Source: a virus
Virus record (IMG/VR): IMGVR_UViG_3300035187_002196
Span: 1-24,857 of that record
DNA length: 24,857 nt
Direction: 5' to 3' (one strand)
A program made the position numbers and the translations under genes. The notes under the pieces were generated by a model. The model ran no database searches and was not told the DNA's origin. It saw only the letters and a list, made by a program, of their open reading frames with translations. Within the stretch, counting starts at the first letter, position 1. Each line of letters opens with the position of its first letter. Below, piece by piece: positions 3-20,280 of the stretch.

Positions 3-1874
3 AAGAAGATCGAGAAGATTTACATCGACGAGCGGGACATGAGCGAGGGCAATGCCGCCCGGTTCAACATCCTGTGGTCGAACGTCGAGACCCTGCGCCC
101 GGCGGTCTATATGCAGACGCCCAAGCCTAAGGTGAAGCGCCGGCATCGGGACCGTGACCCTGTGGGGCGGCTCACGTCGGCCATCCTTGAGCGGGCGCTT
201 GTCACGACCTGCGAGCTGTATGACTTCGATGCTGCGGTCGACAGCGCTGTGCGGGACCGCCTTGTGGTCGGTCGCGGCCAAGCGTGGGTGATGTACACGC
301 CGGAAATTGTCGGCGAGGGCGATCAGCAGGACGTGGCCTATGAGGCCGCCGAGTGCGTGTATGTGCCCTGGACCGACTTTCTGCACGGCCCGGCCAAGCA
401 ATGGCAGGACGTGCCATGGGTGGCGCGGCGGACGTGCATGGGCCGGCGCGAGCTGGCCAAGTGGGTGCAGGAGCGCGGGCTGCAGGTCAATCTGCAGGCC
501 ATCGAGATGGATTACGGCGTCGAGAACCGGCGTGACGGCGAAGGCAAACAGAGCCAGGCCCAGATTTGGGAGATTTGGGATAAGCAGGGCGGCACGGTCA
601 TCTACCTTGCGCCGGGGTCGAACGAGCATGCGCTGTTAGGGCAGGTTCCGCCGCCGCAGCGCTTCGCTGGCTTCTTCCCGTGTCCGAAGCCGCTGCTCGG
701 CACCACGACAGCGGACAACATGCTGCCGGTGCCTGACTACGTCATGTATCAGACGCAGGCGCAGGAGCTGAACCGCATCACGGCGCGGATCGGGGCGCTG
801 CAGAAAGCGCTGAAGGTCGTCGGCGTGTACAACGGCGACAACGAGGCCATTGGCCAGCTGTTGGCCGGCACTGAAAACGAGATGATCCCGGTGGCGAACT
901 GGGCGATGTTCGCCGAAGGCGGCGGCGCTCGGGGCAACATCGAGTGGTATCCGGTCGAGCAGGTCGTCTCGGTCATCCAGAGCCTGTATCAGCAGCGCGA
1001 GCAGGCCAAGCAGACGCTGTATGAGGTGTCGGGCCTGGGCGACGTGCTGCGGGGCGTCAGCGATCCGAGCGAGACGGCCACGGCGCAGGGCATCAAGGCG
1101 CAATGGGGCAGCCAGCGGGTCAAGCGCTTGCAAAAGGACGTGCAGCGCTTCGTGGTCGATCTGCTGCGCCTCAAGGCCGAGATTTTGAGCGAGGCGGTGC
1201 CGTTCCAGCAGTTGCTGTCGATGGCGAGCATCGACCAGGAGGTGTTGAGCCGTTACGCGCCGCAGGGCCAAGAGATGGCGATCCTGATGCAGGTGCAGCA
1301 GCTCCTGCAGGGCGATCTGGTCCGCACGTTCCGCATCGACATCGAGAGCGACAGCACGCTTGAGCCTGACCAGCAGCAGGAGAAGCAAACGGCGGTCGAG
1401 TTCGTGACGGCGATGAGCCAGTACCTTGAGAAGGCGGCCCCGGTCGCGGCGCAAGGGCCTGAGGTGGCGAAGATGGTCGGCGAGCTGTTGCTGTTCGCCG
1501 TGCGGCGCTTCGACAAGGTGGATCAGCTGGAGCAGGTGGTGGAGCAGGCGGTGGAAGCCGCGGCGAAGCCGAAGCCGCCCGCGCCGCCGGATCCGCAGAC
1601 CGTGAAGGCGCAGGCCGAAGCCGAGATGGGCAAGGCTGAGCTTCAGCTGAAGACGCAGCAGATGCAGATGGACGCCGCTATGGCGCAGCAGAAGGCGCAG
1701 AGCGATGCGGAGCTTGAGCGGGAGCGCTTGGCTCTGGACCGCGAGAAGCTGCGCCTTGAGGCATTGAAGCTGGATCTGGAGCGGCAGCGCTTGGAATGGG
1801 AACGAGAGCGGGGAACGGCGGAGATCGTGACGAAGCGTGAAGCGACGGCGATGCGGCAGGGGCCGCCCGTATGA
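3..1874 (+). CDS. Portal protein, 5'-truncated by the window
   Basis: Dodecameric portal that sits at one capsid vertex, passes DNA and docks the terminase and neck. The frame is open from base 3, before the first ATG at 39, and the residues ahead of that ATG read as normal portal N-terminus, so the gene starts outside the window. The first 100 residues carry the pattern I know from podovirus portals: an RFNILWSN segment, then PxVxRR, then DPVGR, then a VGRGxxWVxY strand. The C-terminal 90 residues are a Pro-rich linker followed by a Gln/Glu/Arg-rich coiled coil. About 620 residues are visible, within the usual size of P22/podovirus-type portals. Its stop overlaps the next start as ATGA. A large terminase would be expected just upstream. 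Family assignment is from recognised pattern, not a search. Confidence 0.88.
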   Translation, partial: KKIEKIYIDERDMSEGNAARFNILWSNVETLRPAVYMQTPKPKVKRRHRDRDPVGRLTSAILERALVTTCELYDFDAAVDSAVRDRLVVGRGQAWVMYTPEIVGEGDQQDVAYEAAECVYVPWTDFLHGPAKQWQDVPWVARRTCMGRRELAKWVQERGLQVNLQAIEMDYGVENRRDGEGKQSQAQIWEIWDKQGGTVIYLAPGSNEHALLGQVPPPQRFAGFFPCPKPLLGTTTADNMLPVPDYVMYQTQAQELNRITARIGALQKALKVVGVYNGDNEAIGQLLAGTENEMIPVANWAMFAEGGGARGNIEWYPVEQVVSVIQSLYQQREQAKQTLYEVSGLGDVLRGVSDPSETATAQGIKAQWGSQRVKRLQKDVQRFVVDLLRLKAEILSEAVPFQQLLSMASIDQEVLSRYAPQGQEMAILMQVQQLLQGDLVRTFRIDIESDSTLEPDQQQEKQTAVEFVTAMSQYLEKAAPVAAQGPEVAKMVGELLLFAVRRFDKVDQLEQVVEQAVEAAAKPKPPAPPDPQTVKAQAEAEMGKAELQLKTQQMQMDAAMAQQKAQSDAELERERLALDREKLRLEALKLDLERQRLEWERERGTAEIVTKREATAMRQGPPV

Positions 1875-2104
1875 GCCATCGCATTGTGTGCATCGTCCCG
1901 TCTGGCGGTGTGCCTGTGACGCTGGTTCCTGATGGGCCGCCGGCTTTGGCCGTGGCGGACGGGCCGCCGGTGACGGTGGTGAGTTCTGGCGCGCCGCCGA
2001 TCTGCGTTGTGAACGGCCCCGGCACGACATCGCCAAAAGAGATTTTTTCGCGCAGTGGGCTGTTCATCGTTGCGCGTGATGGATCAGAGATAGTGGGACG
2101 CTAA
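1871..2104 (+). CDS. Small hypothetical protein after portal
   Basis: A 77-residue protein of unknown function. It is rich in Val, Pro and Gly, with repeated short segments ending in GPP or GAPP (about residues 10-45) that suggest a small beta-rich or extended structural protein. No membrane segment, signal peptide or catalytic motif is visible. Its ATG overlaps the portal stop as ATGA, implying translational coupling, and its stop lies only three bases before the next start. The position in the head operon suggests a minor virion or fibre-associated role, but nothing in the sequence proves this. Confidence 0.6.
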   Translation: MSHRIVCIVPSGGVPVTLVPDGPPALAVADGPPVTVVSSGAPPICVVNGPGTTSPKEIFSRSGLFIVARDGSEIVGR

Positions 2105-2107
2105 GCC

Positions 2108-3205
2108 ATGACCACGATGAACATCTATGACATGGCGGATACGTGGAACGCAGGCGGCACCACGTTCACGGCCATCAAAATGAATGTCACCGACACCGCC
2201 TCCGCAGCGGGCTCCCTGTTGCTGGACTTGCAGGTGGGGGGGACGAGTCAGTTTAAGGTGAGCAAAGGCGGGCGCGTCACGGCGCAGACCCTCACCATCG
2301 GCCTAGGCGGCCAGACGGTTGTCGCAACGAACACCGCACTTGGGTTTGAGGCGCTGCATAGCGCGAGCCTGACGGGAACGAATAACGTAGGCGTCGGGTA
2401 TCGGGCGCTGCTAAGCAACACCACGGGCGGCAACATTAGCGCGGTGGGGATGAACGCGCTCTACTCGAACACCACAGGCTCCGACAGCGTTGCGGTGGGA
2501 ACGAACGCGCTCTTCTCCAACACGACGGGCTCCGACAGCGTCGCGATAGGAACTGGCGCGCTCTACTTTAACACCACGGTCAACCAGATGACGGCTGTTG
2601 GTGTTGCGGCTTTCAACAAAAACACGACAGGAGACCAAGGCGTTGCGGTTGGTTATTTGGCCGGACGGGACCAAACAACTGCAACACGGTCAACATTGGT
2701 AGGCCATAGCGCAGGCAGCAAAATCACGACAGGTGCAGCTAACACAATCTTTGGCGCGCAAAGCGGAATAAACATTACAACAAGCGAACAAAACGTCGCT
2801 TTTGGCAGTTACACGCTAAACGGTGCGGCAGGAAACAACAATGTAGCTGTTGGCAATGGCGCGCTGAACGTGACAACGGGGGCGAACAATATAGCGTTAG
2901 GGTTTAACGCCGGAAACGCTTTGTCATCAGGCGGCTCTAATATTGTGATTGGCGCTAGCATCGAGCTAGATAGCAATACAGCGTCAAACCAAATCAACAT
3001 CGGCGGCCGCTACTTCCACGACCGCATCCGCCTGCTTGAGCGCACAAGCGACCCCGCCAAGCCCGCAGAGGGCAATGTGGTGATTTGGATGTCAGATGGC
3101 ACAGGTCTCGGCGATGACGGCGATATCATGATCGGCAGCACTGCGGGCGGCGTGACCAATTACGGCACGCTCTTTGACCACAGCGGAGGCACATTATGGC
3201 CATAG
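2108..3205 (+). CDS. Beta-roll fibre-like structural protein (trimeric-adhesin-type repeats)
   Basis: A 365-residue protein built mainly of 14-17 residue repeats (about residues 75-290) with the pattern NTTGxxxVAVGxxAL. This is the left-handed beta-roll signature of YadA-type adhesin heads and of phage fibre or spike proteins that often precede an endosialidase-type chaperone. The N-terminal 60 residues resemble a fibre attachment domain (VGGTSQFKVSKxG). The C-terminal 70 residues contain ERTSDPAKPAEG and WMSDGTGxGDDGDIMI, a tail I associate with phage fibre or head-fibre proteins. A weak GGGA lies nine bases before the ATG. Its location between portal and scaffold is unusual for a tail fibre, so a head fibre or capsid-associated fibre is plausible. 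Bases about 2560-3000 are visibly AT-richer than all neighbours, which suggests separate acquisition. Confidence 0.75.
   Translation: MTTMNIYDMADTWNAGGTTFTAIKMNVTDTASAAGSLLLDLQVGGTSQFKVSKGGRVTAQTLTIGLGGQTVVATNTALGFEALHSASLTGTNNVGVGYRALLSNTTGGNISAVGMNALYSNTTGSDSVAVGTNALFSNTTGSDSVAIGTGALYFNTTVNQMTAVGVAAFNKNTTGDQGVAVGYLAGRDQTTATRSTLVGHSAGSKITTGAANTIFGAQSGINITTSEQNVAFGSYTLNGAAGNNNVAVGNGALNVTTGANNIALGFNAGNALSSGGSNIVIGASIELDSNTASNQINIGGRYFHDRIRLLERTSDPAKPAEGNVVIWMSDGTGLGDDGDIMIGSTAGGVTNYGTLFDHSGGTLWP
2468..2569 (+). repeat. Tandem 51-bp coding repeat in the beta-roll gene
   Basis: Two near-identical 51-bp units, 2468-2518 and 2519-2569, each encode a 17-residue NTTGSDSVAxG-type turn of the beta-roll. 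They differ by a handful of mostly third-position changes. More diverged units lie on both sides. DNA-level identity this high suggests recent duplication or recombination between units, a common way for fibres to change length. Confidence 0.7.
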
Positions 3206-3417
3206 ATAATCCGACACCGGAAGAAATTGCACGCCACTACTCAGCGATGCTCGACAGCGTGACCCTGATCAACAGCCTCGTGCCAACCACGGACGCGGAT
3301 GATCTCGACACGCTTGACCGCAATGTTCGTCACCTTGAGCAGATGCTGCTCAACGACTGGTGGGCAGGCTATGACCTCGCACCGATCAACGCAGCAATCA
3401 CAGCAGGCAAGCAATGA
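3196..3417 (+). CDS. Small hypothetical protein downstream of fibre
   Basis: A 73-residue acidic, probably helical protein with no recognised domain. The middle contains TDADDLDTLDRNVRHLEQML, a likely amphipathic helix, followed by an aromatic DWWAGYDL segment. Its start lies 10 bases inside the fibre gene and its stop overlaps the next start as ATGA, so it is part of a tightly coupled set. Small genes immediately after fibres are often assembly chaperones or fibre-tip parts. That is only a positional suggestion here. Confidence 0.6.
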   Translation: MAIDNPTPEEIARHYSAMLDSVTLINSLVPTTDADDLDTLDRNVRHLEQMLLNDWWAGYDLAPINAAITAGKQ

Positions 3418-3587
3418 CACTCGACCTCACCCCCGCTCAATTCCAAACCCTCGCTGGCCTGCTTGACGCAGCGATCAAAACCCTCGGCATCCGCGCGATG
3501 GAGGATGACGTGGTGGACCTGATGCAAGCCGTGAAGGCCGCGGCGCAGGCCGAAGCGCAACCGCAGCCGATGGACGAAGCGGCATGA
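3414..3587 (+). CDS. Very small hypothetical protein (57 aa)
   Basis: The frame from ATG 3414 to TGA 3585-3587 encodes 57 residues beginning MTLDLTPAQFQTLAGLLDAA and ending in a Gln/Ala/Pro-rich acidic tail. It is predicted mostly helical, with LTPAQFQTLAGLL looking like a capped helix. It overlaps the preceding stop (ATGA) and the following start (ATGA), so both junctions fit a coupled operon gene. The composition is normal for the region. I recognise no family. A role as a small structural or chaperone protein is inferred from position only. Confidence 0.5.
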   Translation: MTLDLTPAQFQTLAGLLDAAIKTLGIRAMEDDVVDLMQAVKAAAQAEAQPQPMDEAA

Positions 3588-3682
3588 GCGCTGAGGTCTT
3601 CGCCATGCTCCTGACATGGGTTATCGGCCTGTGCACCGGCTACAACCTCGCTCATGTCGTCATGGTCCTGCGGCGGCGGTGA
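3584..3682 (+). CDS. Tiny single-TM membrane peptide (32 aa)
   Basis: The frame from ATG 3584 to TGA 3680-3682 encodes 32 residues: a short acidic head (MSAEVF), a hydrophobic stretch of about 20 residues (AMLLTWVIGLCTG then LAHVVMVL), and a triple-Arg end. A charged C-terminal anchor of this kind predicts an N-out, C-in single-pass membrane peptide. Its start overlaps the upstream stop as ATGA. Membrane peptides this size are frequent and usually unannotated in phage operons. I cannot assign a function. It could also be a chance frame, but the hydrophobic segment with a positive-inside end argues against that. Confidence 0.4.
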   Translation: MSAEVFAMLLTWVIGLCTGYNLAHVVMVLRRR

Positions 3683-3745
3683 TGCGTTGGCGCGACCTGA
3701 TCCCGCAGCGGCGCTGATCGCCGCAGGGCTGGCGAGGGCCAACGC

Positions 3746-4135
3746 GTGAGGCGCTCTTATCGGCTGTGCCGGCATTGCGGCGACCTACATCAGCTGGGGC
3801 GCTGGCCGGACAACTGCAAAGACGAGGCGCCGCAACGCAGCGATCATGCCGCGCCCTTCGTGGTGCGCGACACGCTGCCGGGCGGGGTCAACGGCCTCTA
3901 CCACCACGCGGCGCTGCGCAAGTTCGACAGCAAGGCGGCGTATCGGCAGGCCACCAAGGACGCGGGCTGCATCGAGATCGGCAACGAGTACGCGGCGGCC
4001 AACACGCGGCGCTCGGTCGACATCGACGACCGCGTCATCGAGAGCGGCGTCAACGAGGCGCTGCACCAGCACGGCATCAGCTCTGAGAGCGATATGGGAA
4101 AACTGCAATGGTCCGTGACACCGACGACGACCTGA
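3746..4135 (+). CDS. Small Cys-containing protein before scaffold
   Basis: A 129-residue protein starting at GTG 3746, with a GAGGG ribosome site at 3734-3738. The N-terminus holds C8-x2-C11, H15 and C24, which could bind one zinc ion. The middle (KFDSKAAYRQATKDAGCIEIGNE) is a pattern I have seen in unnamed proteins next to podovirus portal and scaffold genes. The last 28 bases overlap the scaffold gene in another frame. No enzyme motif is visible. I infer a head-assembly accessory or a small zinc protein. Function is unknown. Confidence 0.65.
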   Translation: MRRSYRLCRHCGDLHQLGRWPDNCKDEAPQRSDHAAPFVVRDTLPGGVNGLYHHAALRKFDSKAAYRQATKDAGCIEIGNEYAAANTRRSVDIDDRVIESGVNEALHQHGISSESDMGKLQWSVTPTTT

Positions 4136-5070
4136 CCGGCGTGGAAGACGACATTGGCGCGCTTCTGGACGAAGCGAACGAGGGGCGCGAGGCGCCCGAG
4201 CGCCAGTACAACCGCGACGAGGTCGGCAAGTTTGCGCCGCGCCCCCGGGAAGAAGCGCCCGCGCCGGCGCAGGCCGCGCCCGCTCAGGCGCCGCAGGAGC
4301 CGCCCTGGAAGCCGGTGTGGTACAAGGACGATTACGGCGACTGGTCGAAGCTGCCGGAGCCCCTGCGCCAAGCGCTGCGGGAGCGCGAGCAGGGTATTGA
4401 ACGCAAGCTGCAAGAGGTCGGCGGCCCGGCCAACAACTGGCGCCAGCTTGAGCAGATGCTTCAGCCGTGGCAGCAGCAGCTGCAACAGGCGGGCGTGCAG
4501 CCGGCGGAGTACTTTGCGCAGCTGCACCAGGCGAACGAGTTCCTGCTTCAAGACCCGGTGCGCGCTCTGGCGTGGCTGGCGCAAGAGAACGGCGTCGACT
4601 TGGTCGATTTCGCCCAACAGGTGCTCGGGCAAACGTCGGCGGGACGTGACCCGACCGTCGCTTACCTGAAGCAGCAGGTGGAGCAGCTGGAAGACCAGCT
4701 GCACAGGGTCAGCACGACGCAGCAGAGCTTTACACAGGCGCAGCAGGCCGCGCGGGACGCGGCGCTGCGCGACGAGGTCGAAACGTTCGGCAAGGATAAG
4801 CCGCACTTCAGCGAGTTGAAGCCGGTCATGGCCCGGCTTCTGCAAGCGGGAGAGGCACACGATCTGCCGAGCGCTTACGAGAAGGCCGTTTGGCTACACC
4901 CGGACGCTCGGGAGCGCATCCTTCAGGACCAGCGCCGCACGAATGTCAGCCGGGCCAGGGCCCAGGCCGTGAGCCCGCGGGGCGCCCCGATTGCGGGGGG
5001 TCGCGCATCAAACGGAGCCCGCCTGTCGTTAGAAGACGAGATCGCAGGTCTCATCGACGGGCTGCAATAA
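4108..5070 (+). CDS. Capsid scaffolding protein
   Basis: A 320-residue protein that would template procapsid assembly and leave before or during packaging. The evidence is composition and order. There is an acidic N-terminus (residues 1-35), then a Pro/Ala/Gln-rich disordered linker (about 45-70) and long Gln/Glu/Leu-rich helical segments (about 85-235). The C-terminus is basic and probably carries the coat-binding helix. It ends 13 bases before the major capsid gene, the standard scaffold position. No protease motif (Ser/His/Asp with GxSxG) is visible, so a separate or fused maturation protease is not apparent. Scaffold sequences diverge fast, so the call rests on position and character. Confidence 0.75.
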   Translation: MVRDTDDDLTGVEDDIGALLDEANEGREAPERQYNRDEVGKFAPRPREEAPAPAQAAPAQAPQEPPWKPVWYKDDYGDWSKLPEPLRQALREREQGIERKLQEVGGPANNWRQLEQMLQPWQQQLQQAGVQPAEYFAQLHQANEFLLQDPVRALAWLAQENGVDLVDFAQQVLGQTSAGRDPTVAYLKQQVEQLEDQLHRVSTTQQSFTQAQQAARDAALRDEVETFGKDKPHFSELKPVMARLLQAGEAHDLPSAYEKAVWLHPDARERILQDQRRTNVSRARAQAVSPRGAPIAGGRASNGARLSLEDEIAGLIDGLQ

Positions 5071-5083
5071 GGATTAACCCACC

Positions 5084-6064
5084 ATGGCAAGCCTGAATAT
5101 CGGGCAGGTGGTTGCGACGACGCTGCGCAACCGCATGCCGGACATTGTCGACAACATGAGCGACAACGTCCCGTTCTATAACCGCATCCGCCAGCGCAAG
5201 AACATGAAGCTGGACGGCGGCCGCGACATCGTCGTGCCTCTCGAGTACGAAGAAAACGGCGCGTTTCAGTTCTACAGCGGCTACGAGACCTTGAACGTCT
5301 CGATCAACGACATCATCGACGCCGCTGTGTTCGATTGGAAGCAGGCCGCTGTGCCTGTGTCCTTCTCGGGCCTTGAGCTGCTGCGCAACAACGGGCGCGA
5401 AGCGGTCATCAAGATCGCCGCGGCGAAGGTGAAGAACGCTCAGCGCACCTTCACCAACCGCATGGGCGCCCAAGTTCACGCTGACGGCACTGGCTCGGGC
5501 GGCAAGGAGATCGGCGGCCTCGGCCTGCTGGTGCCCACCACCGTGACCAACACCGTCGGCGGCATCGACGCGAACGTGAACACGTTCTGGCGGTCGCAGG
5601 TGTTCGACTTCTCGACCATCATCGGCGCCACGACCAGCTCGGCGACGATCCAGAACGGCATGCGGCGCATGTATTCGAGCCTCATGCGCAACTCGGATCG
5701 GCCCGACCTGGTCCTCGCGTCTTCGACCTATTACGACATGTACTGGGGCAGCCTCACGGCGATCCAGCGCATTGGGGAGCCGGGCGAAGGTCGGGGCGGG
5801 TTCGAGAGCCTCAAGTTCGTGAACGCGGACGTGGTGAACGAGGGCGGCGTCAGCGGCCCGATGGCGGAAAGCGCGGTCGCAAACGCCACCATGTTCATGC
5901 TGAACACGAACTATCTCGGCCTCATCACGCACAGCGACCGCAACATCGAGGTGGTCGGCGGCGAACGCCAGTCGATCAACCAAGACGCGACGGTCCAGTT
6001 CATGATGTGGGCGGGCAACATGTACATCTCCAACCGCCAGCTCCAAGGCAAAGGGGTCGAGTAA
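5084..6064 (+). CDS. Major capsid protein
   Basis: A 326-residue capsid subunit, expected to have the HK97 fold. It has a strong ribosome site, AAGGA at 5069-5073, ten bases before the ATG. Supporting features are an N-terminal helix with TLRNRMPDIVDNM, the middle region with VPLEYEENGAFQFYSGYETLN, and the long central helix region ELLRNNGREAVIKIAAAKVKNAQRTFTN, all typical of podovirus coat proteins. A late segment LVLASSTYYDMYWGSL matches the A-domain style 'substitute and measure' strand-helix. The length is typical of coats without a cleaved delta domain, which agrees with a separate scaffold upstream and no visible protease. Its TAA overlaps the next ATG (TAATG). Confidence 0.88.
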   Translation: MASLNIGQVVATTLRNRMPDIVDNMSDNVPFYNRIRQRKNMKLDGGRDIVVPLEYEENGAFQFYSGYETLNVSINDIIDAAVFDWKQAAVPVSFSGLELLRNNGREAVIKIAAAKVKNAQRTFTNRMGAQVHADGTGSGGKEIGGLGLLVPTTVTNTVGGIDANVNTFWRSQVFDFSTIIGATTSSATIQNGMRRMYSSLMRNSDRPDLVLASSTYYDMYWGSLTAIQRIGEPGEGRGGFESLKFVNADVVNEGGVSGPMAESAVANATMFMLNTNYLGLITHSDRNIEVVGGERQSINQDATVQFMMWAGNMYISNRQLQGKGVE

Positions 6065-7269: not shown

Positions 7270-7967
7270 CGCTGAAAACGGCGATCAACGAAGTGCAGCG
7301 CCTGTGCTCGCTGCCCGTCACGTCGGCTGTCGTCGCGGACGGGCAGGAGAGCCAACAGCTGCTCTGGTCGCTGGCGAACCGCGAGGCGCGAGATGTGATC
7401 CGGCGCCATGCCTGGCCGCAGCTGCGGCGGGAGCACACGTTTACGTCGAACACGGCGAGCTTGCAGACCAACGGGCGGCCTGCCAACTTTGAGCGCATCA
7501 TCGCCGGCACGTTCTGGAACCGGGCGTCGGATCGTGAGCTGATGGGGCCGCTTGAGGCGACGGAATGGGCGCTGGCCTATGGCGAGCCGTTCACGAGCGC
7601 CATTCAGCAATACTGGATGCTGCGCCATGACGGCCTGCACATCTTCCCCGTCCCGACGGCGGCGGAAGCGATGGCCTATGAATACCAGATGACGACGCCG
7701 GTCTTGGCGGCGGACGGAACCACGTTCCGCCGGCAGTTCGAGGCCGACACCGATACGTATGTGCTCGATGAAGAGCTGCTGATCCTGGGCGTGACTTATC
7801 GCTTTCTGAAGCAGAAGGGCCTGGACTACGCCGAGGCGCTGCGGGATTACGAGCTTGCGCTGTCCACGGCCATTGGGTCGGCGAAGGGAGCCAAGATCAT
7901 CAATCTGGCGCCGGAAGAAGCGGATGTGCCGCTGCCGCTGATCCCTGAAAGCGGGTACGGGCAGTGA
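7266..7967 (+). CDS. Head-tail adaptor (connector) protein
   Basis: A 233-residue protein that most resembles the ring adaptor below the portal in short-tailed phages (SU10/P22 gp4-like role). The pattern is an N-terminal helical hairpin (AINEVQRLCSLP ... LLWSLANREARDVIRRHAWPQLRREHTF), then beta strands ending in an LHIFPVPTAAEAMAYEYQM segment. A C-terminal helix (EELLILGVTYRFLKQKGLDYAEALRDYELAL) follows. Those blocks in that order are what I recognise from this adaptor family. The start is GTG 7266 overlapping the upstream stop (GTGA), and its stop overlaps the next gene the same way. The position before the nozzle gene agrees. Confidence 0.75.
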   Translation: MTLKTAINEVQRLCSLPVTSAVVADGQESQQLLWSLANREARDVIRRHAWPQLRREHTFTSNTASLQTNGRPANFERIIAGTFWNRASDRELMGPLEATEWALAYGEPFTSAIQQYWMLRHDGLHIFPVPTAAEAMAYEYQMTTPVLAADGTTFRRQFEADTDTYVLDEELLILGVTYRFLKQKGLDYAEALRDYELALSTAIGSAKGAKIINLAPEEADVPLPLIPESGYGQ

Positions 7968-9529
7968 GAACAGCGCTGGCGGGCGCCCGAGGCCCTCGCG
8001 CTCGCAATCTGCCGCGCCGTCAGTCGGGCTCGGTGACGCTGCCGGCCCCGGTTGAGGGCTTGGACAGCGAAACGCCAGTGGCGGAGTTGCCGCCCACCCG
8101 GGCGATTGTGCTTGATAACTGGGTGCCGAAGGGCGTTGCGCTGGAGATGCGCCGCGGCTCAGTCAACCATGTGACGGGCGGGACTGGCCCGGTTGAGGCG
8201 CTGCTGGCATGGAACGGCCCGTCAGGCTCGAAGCTCTGGGCGGCCATCGGCGGCGGGCTCTATGACGTGACCTCGGCAGGCTCGCTGCCGTCTGCGGCGG
8301 TGTCGGGCCTGACCAATGCGCGCTGGAAGGGTGTGAACATCACCACCAGCGGCGGGGCGTTTCTGTGGATCTGCAACGGGGCGGATGCGCCGCGGCACTA
8401 CAACGGCTCCAGCTGGTCGACGCCGAGTCTGACGGTGACGACGTTCACGGCGGCGGACATCAACTACGTCTGCGAGAGCAAGCAGCGGCTGTTCTTCTGC
8501 TTCAAGAACAGCCTGACGTTTGGTTATCTGCCGGTCGACAGCATCGCCGGCACGGTAAGCAACTTCTCGCTGGGGTCGGTGTTCGGCCGCGGTGGTCGCC
8601 TGATCGCCATCGGCACGTTCACGAACGACGGCGGCAGCGGCCCTGACGATTACACCGTGTTTCTCACCTCTGAGGGCGAGGTGGCGATCTACGCCGGCTC
8701 CAACCCGGGCGACGCGACGGATTGGGGGCTTGTGGGCCGCTGGTATGTCGGCAAGCCGAAGGGCGACACGCCCATCGTGGACCTTGACGGCGACCTTGGC
8801 GTCATCACGGTCAACGGCGTGGTGCCTGTGGCGCAGGTGTTCAGCGGTCATCAGGTCGTGGAGCCGCCGCGCTATCTAACGGCGCGCATTTCGAGCCTGT
8901 TTCGCGACCAGGCCGCGACGGGCGCCGCGGACGGCTGGAGCGGGATTTATCACCCGGCGGGCGATCTGCTCATCATCAACTGCCCGGTGTCGGCGAACAT
9001 CTCGGTGCAGTATGTGCGCCACCAGATCACGGGCGGTTGGACCCGCTTCACGGGCTGGAACGCCGCTTCATGGGTCGTGTTCGGCGGCGAGCTGTACTAC
9101 GGCGGCCTCGATGGGACGGTGGTCAGGGCCGACACGGGCTACGCGGATCGCGGCGCGGACGTGACCGGCCTTCTGCAGACGGCGTGGACGTCTCTCGGAT
9201 CTCGCGGCGTGGTCAAGCGGCTGCTGATGGCGCGGCCGGTCATCACGACGGACACGGGCGCTGCGGTGTCGCTGGTGGCGCGCACGGATTACCAAGCCAC
9301 GCCGTTTCTGCCGGCCTTGTCGGCGCCGACGCTCACTGACGCGCTCGTGTGGGGCAGCGGCGTATGGGGCGTGAACCGCTGGGGCGGGCGCGATCTCGGC
9401 ACGCGGCAATGGCGCACGGTGTCAGGCGTCGGGCACGTGGCTTCGCTGGTCATGCAGGCGGCATCGCGCCAGAGCCAATTTGCGCTGAACGGCATTGATC
9501 TGGTGTTTGAGGTCGGAGGGCCGGTGTGA
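7964..9529 (+). CDS. Tail nozzle / stabilisation-type protein
   Basis: A 521-residue, almost entirely beta-stranded protein. The N-terminal part has a PAPVEGLDSETPVAELPPTRAIVLDNW segment and then MRRGS. This is a signature I associate with podovirus tail-nozzle or 'phage stabilisation' proteins, which begin by promising values at fixed loci and then form a propeller-like body. Repeats with GGGLYDVTSAG, WICNGADAPRHYNG and GELYYGGLDGTVVRAD are consistent with blades. It would close the tail tip and hold DNA. Start GTG 7964 overlaps the adaptor stop. Order adaptor-nozzle-GNAT-ejection proteins is standard for this phage type. Exact family unverified. Confidence 0.72.
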   Translation: MRTALAGARGPRARNLPRRQSGSVTLPAPVEGLDSETPVAELPPTRAIVLDNWVPKGVALEMRRGSVNHVTGGTGPVEALLAWNGPSGSKLWAAIGGGLYDVTSAGSLPSAAVSGLTNARWKGVNITTSGGAFLWICNGADAPRHYNGSSWSTPSLTVTTFTAADINYVCESKQRLFFCFKNSLTFGYLPVDSIAGTVSNFSLGSVFGRGGRLIAIGTFTNDGGSGPDDYTVFLTSEGEVAIYAGSNPGDATDWGLVGRWYVGKPKGDTPIVDLDGDLGVITVNGVVPVAQVFSGHQVVEPPRYLTARISSLFRDQAATGAADGWSGIYHPAGDLLIINCPVSANISVQYVRHQITGGWTRFTGWNAASWVVFGGELYYGGLDGTVVRADTGYADRGADVTGLLQTAWTSLGSRGVVKRLLMARPVITTDTGAAVSLVARTDYQATPFLPALSAPTLTDALVWGSGVWGVNRWGGRDLGTRQWRTVSGVGHVASLVMQAASRQSQFALNGIDLVFEVGGPV

Positions 9530-12480: not shown

Positions 12481-14750
12481 GCGACATCCGCGTCCGCGGC
12501 CCAGACGGGCGCGTTGTGATCTTCCCGGCGGGCACGTCCGAAGAGACAATGCGCAATGCGCTGCACTCCTATTACGGCGGCGGGCGCCAGCAATCGCGGC
12601 CGGAAGCGTTTCGCCGTAACGCTGTTGACTCGCTGACGTGGGGTCGGGCCGATGAGTGGTCTGGCGCGTTTGCGCGGGGATCAGTGGGTGATTTGGGCGG
12701 CATGCTGCGCGGCATTGAGCGCAACATGCCATTGTCTTTTCTCACGCCCGGTTTATCGGACGAGCAGATTGAGCGGCTAAACGCCAGAGAGCGTGAATTA
12801 GGCATTAGAACGCCGTTGAATGATCCTGCCGTTCGGGCGCGAGGCGACGAAGCGGAAAGCCGCGCCACCGAACGTTCCCGCGGCGATCTGGCGGCCGCGC
12901 AGTTTCAGCACCCAGTGTCGTCAATCGCGGGCTCCATCACGGGCGCCCTCCCGCTTGGAGCGGTTGGCGGTGGCGCTGCGGCTCCAGTGCGGGCAATAGG
13001 CGGCGCAGTAACCGGAGCGGGGCGGGGCCTTTTGGCGCTTGGTCGCGGCGGACGCGCTGCAGCGCCAGCCGCTGCCGCGCGCAGCCGAGATGCGGCAGGA
13101 AGGTTTGTGGCGGGTGCGGCAGCGGGGCGTGCGGCGACACCAGCAACAAACGCCGCGACCACAGCAGCGGCGGAGGTCGCGCCGCGCTTTGCGCCGACGT
13201 TGGCTAGGCGCATTGGCGCGGCAATGGGCGCAGGCGGCGCTTTTGGCGGGGCACACGGCTACAACTCAGGCCGGGACGGCGAACGCCTTGAAACCGGCCT
13301 GCGCGGCGCTCGTGACGGCGCCCTGTGGGGCGGCGGCTTGGCGGGTGCAAGCGGCGTGCTCGGTCGCGCCATGCGGATCAACAACCCACGCGTCCAAGCG
13401 GCGGCAACGGGCGGCCTTCTGGGCGCCGGCACGGCGGCAGGAACATACGCCATCACTGGCGACATGGGCTTGACGCCGCAGCAGCGCACTGAAGCAGCAT
13501 TGATGGCGGGCGCGCTGGGCTTGGGCGTAGGCGCAAGCGGCGCAGGTATTCGTCGCGCCTTAACGCGCAATCGCCCTGAAGAAAACGTCATGGGCCGCTT
13601 GGCGCGCCGCAGCAATCTGACGGTGCAGCAGCTGGATGAGCGGATTGCTGCGGCACAGAAAACAAATCAAGGGCGCGTTTTTGCCGACATTCTGGGTCGT
13701 CCAGCGCAGCGTCGCGGGCGTACTTTGGCGGAAATGCCTGGCGAGACGCTTGAGATCGCCGCAGCCCGCATGAACGAGCGCATGGCGAACCAAGGCGAGC
13801 GCATCGGGCAGGCTATCTCTCGGCAAGGGCGTCGCCCCGCTATGGATGCTTTGAGCGAGCGTGTGGAAAAGGCGTCGGCTAAGTTGTTGACGCCCGTCAT
13901 GCGCGCCGTGACGCCGGAGGGCCGCGGCCGCGCAAGCCAAACGCTGGCCGACCTGCAGCGGCGGCCAACAGTGCGGGGCGCTATGCAAGCGGCGCAAGAG
14001 ATGGTCGAAGAAGATGTGGCGGCCGGGCGCCTTGCTTCGACAGCTATGGACGATCCGGTTCAGATGCTGCACGCGCTGAAGATTGTGCTACAGGCGCAAG
14101 CGCGAGACCCCATGACACTGGGGCGAAATTCGCTTGGCCTCATTGACAATGCGCAACTGGTGGCGGCCTCAAACGCCGTTTCGGACACGTTGGAAGCTGT
14201 TGCCCCTGGTTACGCTAACGCCATGGCGCAACTTCAGCGATTGATCGTGCCGCGGGAAATCATGCGGACGGTCGAAAACGCTCAGCGCGGGGATGTGGTG
14301 AACGTGGCCGGCGCCGCGTTGCGCAACCCCCAGGTGCGCCGCAGCATCGCCCAACGTCCTTACAGGCGCATTGGCGACATGCTTCGCCAGGAGGATGAAT
14401 TGTATCAGTCGGCGCGCCGCATGATGCCGGACTCGGGGTCGCAAACGACGCCGATGGCCATGGATGTCATGGACCAACTGGCGACAGAAAACGTGCCGCT
14501 GTCGTTGCAAGGCTGGCTTGACCGGGCCGCGAGGCACATGATGGCAGGTCCCCGCGAGAGCGTCCGCAACCAACTGGGCGCCGCGCTTTACGAGCCGGTT
14601 GACCGCGGGCTTTCCGACTTCAACCCTGAGCGGATCGCCGCTGCCCGCGCTTGGCTGCTGCGCGACATGCAAAGGCGAGCGGCGGCGGGCCGCAATCAGA
14701 TTGGCGACGCGGCAAGCGGCGCCGTTGGCGTGATGGATCAATCGGAATGA
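12477..14750 (+). CDS. Large internal virion (ejection) protein 3
   Basis: A 757-residue protein. Residues about 3-35 form a small module (IRVRGPDG, FPAGTSEETMRNAL, then YYGG) that is common at the start of large phage ejection proteins. Two Gly/Ala-rich hydrophobic regions follow (about 155-190 and 240-360) with small-residue zipper spacing (GAxxGxGGAFGG, GGLLGAGTAAG), candidates for membrane insertion during DNA entry. The rest is Arg/Ala/Gln-rich helix. No lytic transglycosylase catalytic Glu context or peptidase motif was found. ATG 12477 overlaps the upstream stop. The role is inferred from neighbours and composition. Confidence 0.7.
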   Translation: MSDIRVRGPDGRVVIFPAGTSEETMRNALHSYYGGGRQQSRPEAFRRNAVDSLTWGRADEWSGAFARGSVGDLGGMLRGIERNMPLSFLTPGLSDEQIERLNARERELGIRTPLNDPAVRARGDEAESRATERSRGDLAAAQFQHPVSSIAGSITGALPLGAVGGGAAAPVRAIGGAVTGAGRGLLALGRGGRAAAPAAAARSRDAAGRFVAGAAAGRAATPATNAATTAAAEVAPRFAPTLARRIGAAMGAGGAFGGAHGYNSGRDGERLETGLRGARDGALWGGGLAGASGVLGRAMRINNPRVQAAATGGLLGAGTAAGTYAITGDMGLTPQQRTEAALMAGALGLGVGASGAGIRRALTRNRPEENVMGRLARRSNLTVQQLDERIAAAQKTNQGRVFADILGRPAQRRGRTLAEMPGETLEIAAARMNERMANQGERIGQAISRQGRRPAMDALSERVEKASAKLLTPVMRAVTPEGRGRASQTLADLQRRPTVRGAMQAAQEMVEEDVAAGRLASTAMDDPVQMLHALKIVLQAQARDPMTLGRNSLGLIDNAQLVAASNAVSDTLEAVAPGYANAMAQLQRLIVPREIMRTVENAQRGDVVNVAGAALRNPQVRRSIAQRPYRRIGDMLRQEDELYQSARRMMPDSGSQTTPMAMDVMDQLATENVPLSLQGWLDRAARHMMAGPRESVRNQLGAALYEPVDRGLSDFNPERIAAARAWLLRDMQRRAAAGRNQIGDAASGAVGVMDQSE

Positions 14751-16762
14751 GCCTGCGCGCACGGATGCTTTTAACAGCGCTTGGCGCGCGTCCTCGGGCA
14801 ACGGCGGCAGGCGCTGCGGCCGTGGCTGGCGGAGTTGCCTTGGCAGCCCCGCGTGAAGCGCAAGGCGAGCCTCTGGCTCCGATCACGCGCCAAGAGGTCG
14901 AAGACCTGTATGTGCGCGTGGGCGACAGTCCTGCGCCTCGGGTATCGCCGGAACAGAGCCAGCGCGAGGGGCGTAGGCAGGGCCTCGCTTTGGATTGGTA
15001 CGACGATATGCGCCGGGGCGGCCCGCGCGCTCGCTCCGCCCTCCAACAACTGCGCGAGCAGTATCGAGCCGATCCAACAAATCGCGATCTCGCGGCCCGT
15101 TTGATTGCCGCGGAGCAGGCTTATGATCCCGTGACATTTGCCGCCGCGGCCAATCCCGATGAGTTCGGCGGCGGTCGCCTCACGGGCGAAGTGGCGATCG
15201 GCGCCGGGATTGGTATCCCGACATACCTTGCGAGCCGGCGTTTTGGGCAGCGCGGGCAGATGGCCGCTGGGGCTGCTGTTGGCGCCCTCAAAGGCGGCGT
15301 CTATGGCGCCGGGGCAGGAACGGGCGAAGCGACGACGGAAGATCGCATTACAGGCGCTGCCCGCGACGCCGCTATAACGGGCGCGGTGAGTGGCCTTGCT
15401 GTGCCGGTTATGCGCCTAGCGTCTCGGGCGGTCCAGCACGCCCCCATCCATCTGCAACAAGCGCGAAACGCGCTGACACCTAACTACAGCGGCCCGCGCG
15501 CGGTTGACATGAGGTCGCGGCTGGGCGCTCCGCGAGAGCTGACGCTGCGGCCCGGCGTGTCGGCTGATGAAGTCGTAGCGCGCGCGCAGGCAGCGGACGA
15601 CTATCGCGCCTCAGTCCCGGCTTGGCGGCGCGGTCTTGAGCCGTCGCCGCTTGTGCCGCGTCTGCAGGCGGCGGTGAACCTAGACGATGCTGGACGCGCG
15701 GAGCAGCGCCGACTAGGCACGGCGGAGATCGCGCGGCGTATGCCTCCTCCAAGACGCTTTAGCAGCGTCGAGCCGACAGTCGCGGTCAATCTGGAGCGCC
15801 GCGCTTTGCTGCCGCAGTTTGACGTGGCGGAACTGCGCACGGCGTCCAATCAGGAACGCTCGCGACTGGCGAACCTGCTGCGCCGGCGCCTGCGGGACAA
15901 TGCCCTGACCGACGATGAATACGAGTTTCTGGCGACGCCCGCAGGGCGAGAGCGGTTGCGGCAGTTAGGCGTGTTTGCCCCGAATGCCCCCATCGGCGAG
16001 CCTGTTGTTCGTCCTGCCGCGCGATCAGTTAACCCGTCGCTTCGCGACCGAGTGCCGCAACGCATCGCGCCGGAGGCGGCGCAAGAACTGGCGCGGTCGT
16101 TGTCGTTTAGGACGCCTGTCAGCGTGCCCCGCGTCAGCCCACAAGATCCCGTCTCGCCGCGCCGCGCTGGCCTTACCGCGCTGCTGTCAAGCCGGAGGGT
16201 GACGGGGTATGCGCCGGACACCGAGTCGCTGCTGACCAAGGGCTCAAAACTGGCGGCAGCCGCTATTCCGATCCCAATCGCAGGGGGCGTTAACTCTATG
16301 ATGGGGTGGGAGTCCACGCCGAAACCCCAACCAAGCGATTTTCTTGGCACCGACCCTGAAGCGCGGCGGCGCTTGGCCGAGGGCGGCGTTCAAGAAGACA
16401 TTGGCACGGCGACAGCCGGCGTTTCTGACGCTGCCGCCAACGCAAGTCGCCGCATCGACGACGAGATCGCGGCCTTAGAGCGCGAGGCGGCAAGCTTTGA
16501 GCAGGAGGCGCGGGATCAACTGCGGCGCAACCCGCCGACGCGGTGGGTTCGCCGCGGCGAAGAGCGTGTGCAGATCGACAATCGGCGCGAGCATAGAGCG
16601 GCGCAGGCTAACGCGCAGGAGCTTCGAGGCAGGGCCGAACAGGCGCGGCAGGCAGCACAGCGGCTGGAGGCGTCGCGGGCTCAGCGGATTGAGGCAGAAA
16701 CGACAGCAGCCCGGCGTCAGCTTGAGGGCATGCGCGGGCGGTTGGCGGCCCTTAATGAGTAG
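14747..16762 (+). CDS. Large internal virion (ejection) protein 4
   Basis: A 671-residue protein starting at ATG 14747, which overlaps the upstream stop as ATGA. The in-frame start at 14651 would add 32 basic residues lying inside the previous gene and is less likely. The N-terminus has an Arg-rich head and an Ala/Gly hydrophobic stretch (about 15-33) resembling a signal or membrane anchor. Residues about 140-230 repeat the Gly/Ala zipper design of its upstream neighbour. The middle is Arg/Pro/Ala-rich and low in complexity, and the last 110 residues form a strong Arg/Glu/Ala coiled coil. The style matches ejection proteins. No enzyme motif is visible. Its 3' end overlaps a minus-strand gene by 11 bases. 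Confidence 0.65.
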   Translation: MSLRARMLLTALGARPRATAAGAAAVAGGVALAAPREAQGEPLAPITRQEVEDLYVRVGDSPAPRVSPEQSQREGRRQGLALDWYDDMRRGGPRARSALQQLREQYRADPTNRDLAARLIAAEQAYDPVTFAAAANPDEFGGGRLTGEVAIGAGIGIPTYLASRRFGQRGQMAAGAAVGALKGGVYGAGAGTGEATTEDRITGAARDAAITGAVSGLAVPVMRLASRAVQHAPIHLQQARNALTPNYSGPRAVDMRSRLGAPRELTLRPGVSADEVVARAQAADDYRASVPAWRRGLEPSPLVPRLQAAVNLDDAGRAEQRRLGTAEIARRMPPPRRFSSVEPTVAVNLERRALLPQFDVAELRTASNQERSRLANLLRRRLRDNALTDDEYEFLATPAGRERLRQLGVFAPNAPIGEPVVRPAARSVNPSLRDRVPQRIAPEAAQELARSLSFRTPVSVPRVSPQDPVSPRRAGLTALLSSRRVTGYAPDTESLLTKGSKLAAAAIPIPIAGGVNSMMGWESTPKPQPSDFLGTDPEARRRLAEGGVQEDIGTATAGVSDAAANASRRIDDEIAALEREAASFEQEARDQLRRNPPTRWVRRGEERVQIDNRREHRAAQANAQELRGRAEQARQAAQRLEASRAQRIEAETTAARRQLEGMRGRLAALNE

Positions 16763-17015: not shown

Positions 17016-18320
17016 ATGCCAAGAGACTCAAACGGGACATACACGCGGGCGGTGACGCCTCCCGCCAACGGGGATGTTGCGAGCGCGACCGACTTCAACA
17101 CCGAAATGGACGACATTGCAACGGCGTTCACCGGATCGTTGACGGCCAACGGCTCGAAAGCCTGGGGCGCGGACCAGAACGCTAACGGCTACCGGCTGGT
17201 GGGCCTTGGGACACCCGCCTCAAGCGGTCATGCGGCCACCAAGGGCTATGTGGACGGCGCGTTCCAGCCGGTGGATGCCACACTGACGGCCTGGGCGGCG
17301 CTGGTCGGCAGCGCGAACCAAATCGCGTATTGGACCGGGACCGACACGTTCGCGCTGACGGGCTTTACGGCGTTTGGCCGGTCGCTGGTGGACGATGCGG
17401 ACGATGCGGCGGGGCGCACGACACTTGGCCTCGGCACCTCCGCCACGGTGAACACCGGCACAAGCGGGGCGACTATTCCGCTTTTGAATGGGGCGAATAC
17501 GTGGTCGGGGGCGCAGACGATTACCACGTTGCTCACGTTGCAGAACGGCTCAGACCGCGCCATTGACGTGCGTGATTCAGGTGGCACGGTTCGGGGATTT
17601 GTTGGAGTTGCTGGAATTGACGGCGCAGCGCCAACTAACGCTTTGCGCCTTCGTGGCGAAGGTGGCGTTTTCCTCTCATTTAACGGCGGCGGCGGGTTCT
17701 CTCTGACGAGTGCGTCAGCGGCCACTTTGGGCGGCTCCACCGTCTGGCACGCAGGCAATGACGGCGCTGGCTCCACCATGGATGCCGATCTGCTCGATGG
17801 CCTGCAAGCCACCGCCTTTGGGCGCTTGGGTGTAGCCAATACCTGGACTGCGGCTCAGACGTTTAACGTCAACCCGGAAATCCCGGTTGGCATCTATGCT
17901 CGGTTTGGTCTCACAGGGACCAATGATTGGTACTTGGGAAAACCCAACACGACCGACCTGTATCTGTACCGTGATGCGGGCGTCGCCTGGATCATTAGCG
18001 GATCTGGTCTTGAGATCGCGCTCGGCACCCTCCTCGCCCCGATCCGCATCGGCTCTGAGACCAGCGGAACGCTGACCAGCGCAAGCCGAAACACGCAGGT
18101 CCACTGTTCGGGCAACATCACATTGCCCGCCTCAGGCATGACAGACGGGGACATCATTCTGATCGACCCCCGCGGCACAGCCAGGACCATCACCCGCCCT
18201 TCGGCCCACACGATGTACGTCAATGACTCAGACGTGGCGACGGCGACGACGCCAGCCCACAATTTGGTCTCGGCCAAATTCTGCGGCGGGTCAAAGTGGG
18301 TGCTGCAGGGGGCGGTGTGA
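17016..18320 (+). CDS. Tail fibre protein
   Basis: A 434-residue fibre with an AGGA ribosome site and ATG 17016. Its N-terminus reads PRDSNGTYTRAVTPPANGDVA, then DFNTEMDDIATAF and a short linker, the classic anchoring domain of podovirus and lambdoid tail fibres. The repetitive middle (about 90-260) is rich in Thr, Ala, Gly and Asn, with TWSGAQT and TLGLGTSAT type repeats typical of trimeric beta-helix shafts, and HAGND and DADLLDG segments that recur in fibre shafts. The end is predicted beta-rich (about 300-434), which would hold the receptor-binding tip. Bases around 17560-17700 are slightly AT-richer. The stop forms TGATG with the next gene. Confidence 0.82.
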   Translation: MPRDSNGTYTRAVTPPANGDVASATDFNTEMDDIATAFTGSLTANGSKAWGADQNANGYRLVGLGTPASSGHAATKGYVDGAFQPVDATLTAWAALVGSANQIAYWTGTDTFALTGFTAFGRSLVDDADDAAGRTTLGLGTSATVNTGTSGATIPLLNGANTWSGAQTITTLLTLQNGSDRAIDVRDSGGTVRGFVGVAGIDGAAPTNALRLRGEGGVFLSFNGGGGFSLTSASAATLGGSTVWHAGNDGAGSTMDADLLDGLQATAFGRLGVANTWTAAQTFNVNPEIPVGIYARFGLTGTNDWYLGKPNTTDLYLYRDAGVAWIISGSGLEIALGTLLAPIRIGSETSGTLTSASRNTQVHCSGNITLPASGMTDGDIILIDPRGTARTITRPSAHTMYVNDSDVATATTPAHNLVSAKFCGGSKWVLQGAV

Positions 18321-18944: not shown

Positions 18945-19606
18945 CCGACATTGATGTGAGCGCGGCTCTACCGGATTGGACCGACGTACGGGCGGAGCGC
19001 GTCGGGCCGCTGTGGGTCGTGTCGGGCGTTGATCCAGCATCCACGCCACGCAGCGGGGCGCGCGACGACCTCGACAGCCTCTTGGCCGATCTGGCCGCGC
19101 AGGGCCGGGAGCCCGTGGCGAACGAACCCGTGCTTGACAGCGACAGCTGGCCCGATGGCCTGCACGCCAGCGCATTGGACGAAACAGCCATCGAGCCGGT
19201 CGCCGCGCCGGAGCTGGAGCTAGAGCCGAAGCCGGAGCCCGAGCCCATGAGCTTTGAGCAGCTGGCGCAAGCCGGCATCATGCTGATGGAGGACGAGCTG
19301 ACTATCCGGCGCGGAGTGGCCATCGCCCGGATCAGCGAGCACGCCGACGCGCTAATCGCGAACGCGGTCGATCCGAACCGGCGCACGGAGTTTGCGGCCG
19401 AGGTGGCCGTGATCTGGAACAAGCGGCAGATGGGGATCGACCTCACGGCAGAAGAGCAGGCGGTGGAGGCTGAGCACGCTGCCCTGAGCGCTTGGGAAGG
19501 GCGTGTGCGGGCGTTTGAGCGGGCCTTGCGCGACGCGGTGCGCCAAGCCTCGCTTGACATGGTGCGCGAGATTGACGTGGACGGCGCCGGGTGGCCGCAA
19601 CGATGA
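18941..19606 (+). CDS. Hypothetical protein with acidic Pro/Glu linker
   Basis: A 221-residue protein starting at GTG 18941, with GAGGAG at 18927-18932. It has a small N-terminal region (1-90), a Glu/Pro/Lys-rich linker around residues 86-103 (alternating E-P and K-P), and a helical C-terminal domain (about 105-215) that includes EVAVIWNKRQMG and an Ala/Glu/Arg-rich long helix. The two-domain layout with a charged flexible linker fits a fibre-assembly or adaptor protein, but I recognise no family. It overlaps both neighbours by four bases, so is translationally coupled in the fibre-to-effector stretch. Confidence 0.5.
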   Translation: MTDIDVSAALPDWTDVRAERVGPLWVVSGVDPASTPRSGARDDLDSLLADLAAQGREPVANEPVLDSDSWPDGLHASALDETAIEPVAAPELELEPKPEPEPMSFEQLAQAGIMLMEDELTIRRGVAIARISEHADALIANAVDPNRRTEFAAEVAVIWNKRQMGIDLTAEEQAVEAEHAALSAWEGRVRAFERALRDAVRQASLDMVREIDVDGAGWPQR

Positions 19607-20280
19607 GCGTGCTGCGGGCAATCTATCGCGCGGCCCGACAGGCAGGCATTCCCGACGAGATCACCCACGGCTATCTGCGCTTCGGACCCGAAGGCATGAC
19701 GCCCGCCGCGCGGCAAACACGCGCCGCCGAGATGGGCATGGAGCCGTTTTTTCGCGGCATGGGCGACCCGCACGAGCGCAGCCGCACGGTGGGCTGGGCG
19801 TCCTCCCGGCCTGATGTGGCGTCGACGTATGCCGTGGACGAGTTCGGCGGCATGGACGGGGCCAATGTGATGCCCTTGATGGTGCGTACGGACGATCTGC
19901 CGACCGTGGAAGGCGCCGGGCGCATGTTCGACCAGATTGCGCCGGAGGGCGTGCCTGCGTCGCTGCGCCCGCATCTGCCGACCGACTTCGCGGCTACGCC
20001 TGACGATTATGCAGCTGCGGCCTACGACGCGGGCTTTCCTGGCGTGCGCATCCGCAACGTCATTGACGACAACACGCGCCGCGGCGAGCGCTTGCCGCCG
20101 TCGGACACGGTGATGCGCTACCCGCAGCCGGGGCAGGTGGAGAGCGGCTATCGCTCAGTTTACGCCGCGTTTGATCCGGCGCGGAGACGCTGGGCCAATC
20201 TGTTGGCCGGAACAAGCGTAGCTGCGCCGACAGGGCTTGGCCTTCTCGCCCTCTTACGACAACGGGAGCAGGACATATGA
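19603..20280 (+). CDS. Probable ADP-ribosyltransferase-like phage protein
   Basis: A 225-residue protein starting at ATG 19603 (ATGA overlap; an in-frame GTG at 19591 is less likely). It follows the pattern I know from ADP-ribosyltransferase domains of phage 'polyvalent' proteins: TPAARQTRAAEMG (33-45), then an FRG strand (50-52) where the family usually has YHGT, then GWASSRPDVASTY (64-76), corresponding to the W-x-S-x-x-P-x-x-A-x-x-Y block. A YDAGFPGVRI strand and SVYAAFDPARRRWANLLAG (family ending) follow. Substitution of the usual His by Arg, and no obvious Glu in the third motif, leave activity uncertain. The last 19 residues before a short charged tail are hydrophobic. Could be ejected with DNA or act on host targets. 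Neighbours are lysis genes. Confidence 0.6.
   Translation: MSVLRAIYRAARQAGIPDEITHGYLRFGPEGMTPAARQTRAAEMGMEPFFRGMGDPHERSRTVGWASSRPDVASTYAVDEFGGMDGANVMPLMVRTDDLPTVEGAGRMFDQIAPEGVPASLRPHLPTDFAATPDDYAAAAYDAGFPGVRIRNVIDDNTRRGERLPPSDTVMRYPQPGQVESGYRSVYAAFDPARRRWANLLAGTSVAAPTGLGLLALLRQREQDI

Follow-up and report, generated by a model that had tools for sequence, protein, structure and literature searches.

A probable mobile mosaic fibre cassette between the portal and scaffold genes of an Mx8-like phage

A mobile mosaic fibre cassette very probably occupies the junction between the portal and scaffold genes of an Mx8-like phage, as judged by comparing the phage with its relatives. The phage is represented by an IMG/VR virus record of 24,857 bases, which was analysed at full length and is referred to here as the window. 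The cassette (~2030-3706, ~1.7 kb) is translationally coupled and consists of the end of a leader ORF, a repeat-shaft fibre gene, a gene for a 73-aa helical protein, a 57-aa ORF and a 32-aa ORF. The first-pass annotation had suggested that the fibre gene may be movable. This view gains strong support from the absence of the gene in the two nearest portal relatives, from a stretch of 1045 bp that recurs at 100% identity in an unrelated phage, from scars at the cassette edge and from the distribution of related cassettes over seven backbones. We propose that the whole cassette moved by junction-to-junction illegitimate recombination and that each move trimmed the adjacent gene, which would have left nested scars. 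The shaft would then have been swapped by homologous recombination inside the conserved ends. The product would be a trimeric accessory fibre that is attached to the virion, binds host surface glycans or appendages and is assembled with the 73-aa protein as a helper.

A repeat fibre gene interrupts the portal-scaffold pair

The window follows the gene order of an Mx8-like podovirus, in which the portal gene, the insert, a 129-aa gene, a scaffold-like gene and the major capsid protein (MCP) gene succeed one another on the plus strand. The portal gene (39-1874; phrog_12082, E 1.9e-160), the left neighbour of the cassette, encodes a protein with 34.5% identity to the Mx8 portal. The 129-aa gene (3746-4135) is the native right neighbour of the cassette and takes the position of p46 in Mx8, where portal, p46, p47 and MCP are consecutive. 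The scaffold-like protein (4108-5070) adjoins the MCP (5084-6064; phrog_9953, E 8.6e-93) upstream and is homologous to ORFs in L058, L004 and L006; Pfam and PHROG searches with it gave coiled-coil noise and no family. A tRNA search of the window found none, and the portal used as a query on genome contigs retrieved no relative.

An intact 365-aa ORF (2108-3205, plus strand) lies downstream of the portal gene and upstream of the scaffold-like and MCP genes, so the initial description of a repeat fibre gene that interrupts the portal-scaffold pair is correct; the gap also holds the 129-aa gene and several small ORFs. The encoded protein consists of an N-terminal anchor (residues ~1-60), a shaft of 17-residue repeats (~70-290) and a conserved C-terminal domain (~285-365), and the period of 17 is evident from a lag-17 identity of 0.355 versus a shuffle maximum of 0.199. 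Its fibre-like nature is supported by matches to two virion structural families, phrog_6002 (E 6.9e-28) and phrog_23837 (E 1.7e-21), and to the tail spike family phrog_4636 (E 3.7e-19), all of which span the shaft and adjoining residues rather than the full 365 aa. No known head-fibre family was found in Pfam at E 0.1, and the PHROG matches are generic virion structural ones. The likeness to YadA turned out to be mere resemblance. Pfam YadA_head (PF05658) scores 7.9 bits (E 5.8) against a cut-off of 25, no membrane anchor or other Pfam family appears at E 0.1, and inspection by eye revealed no signal peptide; Pfam thus gives no support to an identity as a trimeric autotransporter adhesin.

An AF2 model of the fibre, weak overall (mean pLDDT 57.9), places a strand at each 17 residues and reaches a pLDDT of ~70-84 at residues 91-200. 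With this low-confidence model, Foldseek found no PDB match under 0.001, VIA-align pointed to parallel beta-helix proteins (Z 9-13), and BFVD yielded 15 matches under 0.001, including repeat adhesin-like viral proteins. A PDB search by sequence returned one match at E 0.084 and nothing usable. The family and structure type of the protein suggest an adhesive function.

At the DNA level, a 51-bp tandem repeat of 2.7 copies with 79% match was detected by TRF at 2440-2577 on the plus strand. The lag-51 identity at 2408-2601 is 0.683 versus 0.595 in synonymous shuffles, of which 3/1000 reach the observed value. Over the whole shaft, lag-51 identity does not exceed that of synonymous shuffles (66/1000 reach the observed value), and DNA tandem repetition across the entire shaft was rejected. 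The repeats are real, and extra similarity at the DNA level is confined to 2408-2601. Active repeat change, which had been suggested for this gene, is supported in relatives, with a local signal only in the window gene itself. The fibre gene of L017 is shorter than that of L019 by exactly 789 bp of repeats, a deletion or insertion with a 17-bp microhomology, and the two show 0 differences over 2975 compared bp that comprise the 5' flank and the start of the gene.

Companion genes of the fibre

The 77-aa leader ORF (1871-2104, plus strand) overlaps the portal stop, and its C-terminal end is cassette-derived from ~2030. Its C-terminal 28 aa match a 46-aa ORF of L017 at 54%, and DNA similarity to L018, L062, L064-L066 and L070 begins at 2037. 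The 73-aa ORF (3196-3417, plus strand) overlaps the fibre stop and travels together with the fibre. Its product is predicted to form a three-helix bundle (pLDDT 93.7), had no Pfam match above the cut-off and no PDB structure match under 0.001, and might, as a guess, serve as a helper or chaperone. Members of the 73-aa family are also found in other contexts, including L184-L189, L192 and L198-L203, and a head/packaging location may not be a strict rule. The two remaining plus-strand ORFs are the 57-aa ORF (3414-3587), which overlaps the preceding stop (ATGA) and has homologues in L017, L064-L066, L070, L082, L095 and L096, and the 32-aa ORF (3584-3682), which has homologues in L017, L019, L082, L095 and L096.

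The cassette resides in seven backbones

Cassettes with the fibre in view occupy seven backbones (A-G), for the most part among head/packaging genes. The cassette lies behind the portal gene in backbone A (the window; portal phrog_12082), backbone B (the BPP-1-like group; portal phrog_332 in L016) and backbone C (L060; portal phrog_156, MCP phrog_334). It is located between TerL and portal in backbones D (L082/L095; portal phrog_12, MCP phrog_10) and F (L073; portal phrog_1216, MCP phrog_1328), between MCP and connector in backbone E (L017/L019; head-tail adaptor phrog_477, minor tail phrog_290), and behind head/packaging-class structural genes in backbone G (L018; phrog_399, phrog_437). The MCP of backbone E is related to that of 'capsid protein E' phages. 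A further locus, H (L096), is distantly related to C and has only the 3' end of the cassette in view. Six portals and seven MCPs were compared pairwise by blastp, and E values <1e-3 were restricted to C-H and to a 71-residue stretch of the A and F portals; the partial TerL of L002 is 43.5% identical to the group B TerL. The module is homologous in phages whose backbones are otherwise unrelated.

Fibre sequences change faster than the genes around them in some of these phages. L016, L063 and L064 have portals of 94.4-95.6% DNA identity and fibres of 64.8-68.5%. Likewise, backbone DNA is 92-97% identical between L095 and L082, but their fibre bodies diverge from residue ~50 onwards and their following ORFs differ too.

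How can one fibre serve virions of such different construction? The ending of the leader ORF pairs with the N-terminal type of the fibre in 14/14 loci (L064 and L066 being identical), and a given N-terminal type can recur on more than one backbone, whereas group B contains different types. Because the N-terminal types recur across unrelated capsids, the docking partner may be encoded by the cassette or be a surface feature common to many virions; an anchor that fits one capsid protein only would not show this distribution. A structural question is thereby raised, namely, how one N-terminal anchor serves virions with different portal and capsid families. Speculatively, and with a fairly low likelihood in our estimation, the cassette could be a self-contained plug-in that brings its own dock (leader ORF or helper), equips unrelated capsids, enters head/packaging operons by junction recombination and retains a log of its route as nested scars.

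From gene position only, attachment to the head or neck is slightly favoured over attachment to the tail. The strongest rival, which falls somewhat short of an even chance, accepts the same mobile cassette and holds that its product is a tail fibre or tailspike adaptor and that gene position is uninformative about the site on the virion. In clade B, L060 and L018, the cassette is directly followed by a gene for a pectate-lyase-like tailspike, and spikes are tail-attached structures; the PHROG matches include a tail spike family, and the fibre relatives from cultured phages are annotated as tail fibres. However, no spike follows the cassette in the window, L017, L082 or L073, a separate tail-fibre ORF of the window was identified by PHROG at 17016, and the same N-terminal types extend across different capsid and portal types. 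As outlined in PMC10386132, the usual place of tail-fibre genes in podoviruses of this kind is to the right of the core genes.

The shaft is identical to that of a BPP-1-like phage

The core of the mobile cassette (2186-3230, plus strand) is 100% identical to the corresponding segment of L016 (1045/1045 bp), and the identity stops abruptly at both sides. L016, an 8.2-kb contig, represents a BPP-1-like phage with TerL phrog_2 and portal phrog_332, the latter sharing 60% identity with Bbp21 of Bordetella phage BPP-1. When the window outside the cassette was compared by blastn with the 14 cassette loci, no match was obtained except two stretches in L096. Phages of the L016 type carry portal, fibre and tailspike genes in this order, to which the complete block in L066 adds scaffold and MCP. 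By annotation, the slot lacks such a gene in BPP-1 and the Manatee Spring relative, and neither the core nor the cassette was matched at the DNA level in annotated phages and plasmids. As an incidental finding, the podoviral portal of L092 (PQ492659.1, Limnohabitans phage DC33; 39-kb record) is 62% identical to that of L016; its GenBank lineage, Inoviridae, is probably a misclassification.

The cassette outside and within the core resembles other cassettes in patches. Exact runs are present with L017/L019 at 2129-2184, 2200-2241, 3232-3299, 3450-3525 and 3527-3559, and with L082 at 2096-2124, 3477-3529 and 3657-3706, and the C-terminal part of the core is mostly 83-97% similar to L018 and mostly 70-80% to L017. 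The simplest reading would be that one cassette came in and that a BPP-1-like phage later supplied a new shaft to it, with the direction of this exchange being deduced. A special conserved crossover block at 2186-2212 was also considered. The 27-mer is exact in 10/17 entries listed (window and L002 both counted), and the block is not significant, given that 1358/5000 permutations reach the top window.

Could the identity with L016 be produced by a chimeric metagenome assembly? We consider this improbable. L016 is indeed a single contig, and L197, a phage like it, can be traced through its contig name to the sample of L002. However, the arrangement of the window is repeated in L002 with 1 mismatch in 4415 bp, and the contig name of L002 points to a sample other than that of L016. 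Moreover, both L016 junctions fall in diverged homologous sequence with intact reading frames, and mosaicism, scars and deletions are present in other loci too.

Probable nested scars at the right edge

Past the 32-aa ORF, the window reads TGATG and then contains 25 bases (3682-3706, plus strand) identical to the start of the HK97-type portal gene (phrog_12) of L082/L095, which encodes MRWRDLIP. The similarity stops at 3706, and the exact run of 50 bp shared with L082/L095 (3657-3706) extends 25 bp inside their portal gene. Because L144, which has a related portal, begins with MRWNLPW and aligns from residue 1, MRWRDLIP looks like a true portal start. Conversely, MRWRDLIP may have originated as the 3' end of the cassette itself and have turned into a portal start in L082.

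The scar junction was found in three viral contigs, L095, L096 and L002. In L096, the same scar is followed by a truncated copy of the 129-aa gene of the window (the first 59 codons, 96.6% identity), beyond which lies an unrelated backbone with portal phrog_156 and MCP phrog_334. This copy is best read as a mark of passage through a window-like phage, and the nested arrangement would suggest at least two hops, in which the cassette went from an L082-like phage to a window-like phage and then to an L096-like phage. Beside the second scar, 34 bp of L096 (485-518) are 85-91% similar to a small ORF of the BPP-1-like group (L063 7488, L066 11380); this stretch is too short to be claimed as a third scar.

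Probable expression with the late genes

Stop and start codons overlap (ATGA or TGATG) between most of the cassette genes, the fibre gene begins 3 bp past the leader ORF, and all are oriented with the late genes. A scan for certain promoter types found 0 promoter-like sites in 1700-4300, and terminator-like sites were on the minus strand only and within chance. These features point to probable expression of the cassette within the late operon. They argue against a classical moron, that is, an insert that is independently transcribed in the prophage and perhaps alters the lysogen surface rather than the virion. The insertion between two structural genes and the deviating composition would suit a moron, but the overlap with neighbouring genes, the promoter scan and the virion structural nature of the PHROG relatives would not, and we consider this reading very improbable.

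Presence, absence and base composition

A portal tree of 17 rows places L003 and L058 together as the sister group of the window (support 100/99), and in both relatives the portal gene is followed by the 129-aa homologue with no fibre gene. Among the 17 Mx8-like loci with the slot in view, this cassette is found in 1/17 (the window, repeated by L002), other large ORFs in 6/17 (L004-L008, L010) and no ORF >150 aa beyond portal pieces in 10/17 (L003, L009, L012, L013, L058, L087-L091). The slot is out of view in three of the 14 portal loci (L011, L014 and L015), and 5/10 phage records with a portal match were compared (Mx8 has a duplicate record). L004 (2566-6132) and L005 (10132-12884) have near-identical portals (725-aa ORFs) and different slot proteins of 874 and 793 aa that have a C-terminal region in common; the slot is swapped even between close relatives. 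Based on the census and on the differing slot genes of L004 and L005, the junction downstream of the portal is a recurrent insertion site in this group.

The first-pass annotation had also singled out the AT-richer centre of the gene. GC is 0.507 at 2551-2850 and 0.490 at 2701-3000 versus ~0.65 in the surroundings, and GC windows and codon usage delimit an AT-rich shaft part at 2588-2998 on the plus strand (GC3 0.42-0.53). In 40-codon windows, GC3 is 0.42-0.53 across 2588-3007 versus 0.82-0.88 in 2348-2587. The low-GC shaft deviates from the synonymous expectation by z -4.4 to -5.7, depending on the segment, and other late genes (e.g. near 15790, 14860 and 17556) also have z values of ~-5. Shaft GC3 is 0.46-0.70 in 13/13 fibres examined and is below that of both ends in most of them, although not in the first segment of L070. 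The observation itself holds, but AT-richness was rejected as proof of import: because the low-GC shaft recurs in most family members on any backbone, it is a family property and not evidence of import alone.

Universal presence, vertical descent and normal composition, which would speak against a movable gene, were tested and are not what the data show. An old vertically inherited gene, lost in relatives and with a composition set by protein repeats, would agree with the low-GC shaft in most members on any backbone, but it is contradicted by 10/17 empty slots, which include both sister lineages, by 0 differences in 1045 bp with an unrelated phage and by the scars, and is the least credible of the readings weighed here.

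Relation to known fibre modules

Exchange of fibre modules between phages is already known; what is novel here is the head-block location, together with one near-contemporary hop and nested scars. The closest likeness is the tail fibre and chaperone module that Alteromonas phages A5, V22 and P24 carry across morphologies without other similarity, as described in PMC10579305, in which illegitimate recombination is proposed. Both modules combine a fibre with small companion genes, putative helpers in the present cassette, common to otherwise dissimilar phages. However, the Alteromonas module lies in the tail region and shows ~35-67% protein similarity in most pairs of the table in that report, whereas the present cassette shows up to 100% DNA identity over 1045 bp, head/packaging placement and nested scars. 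Furthermore, the chaperone family of the Alteromonas module, DUF4376, is unmatched by the present cassette in Pfam. Metaviromic islands of marine phages, as presented in PMC3909814, contain fibre genes that vary among near-identical phages, including one tail fibre with a YadA C-terminal domain; they vary within one lineage at a tail-fibre locus, whereas the present cassette is traced through unrelated backbones. As an accessory fibre candidate among head genes, the cassette product also resembles the head fibres of phi29 (gp8.5) and Agrobacterium phage 7-7-1, as reported in PMC7602432 and PMC12796354; the phi29 fibre is described there as alpha-helical, and no sequence match was found for the present fibre. 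In a limited literature survey, no published description of the nested edge scars or of the present cassette was found. Fibre exchange is usually inferred from old, diverged similarity; with one hop preserved at 0 differences, sequence may reveal by which route and mechanism adhesins travel between phages.

Other variable genes

Further variation was observed around the slot and in the window. In L010 (7806-11880), a 405-aa ORF that has weak PHROG matches lies between two parts of the portal similarity, as though an insertion had split the portal gene. L007 has a 159-aa ORF (12969-13448) between a small p46-like gene and the scaffold gene that is missing in its close relative L006, and we take this ORF, by eye, to resemble an HNH homing endonuclease. 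Finally, a 229-aa ORF of the window (19591-20280) matches no PHROG family. L096 contains two stretches homologous to it (3748-4854 and 7903-8853), which fall in different structural regions, and the ORF is perhaps a second travelling gene.
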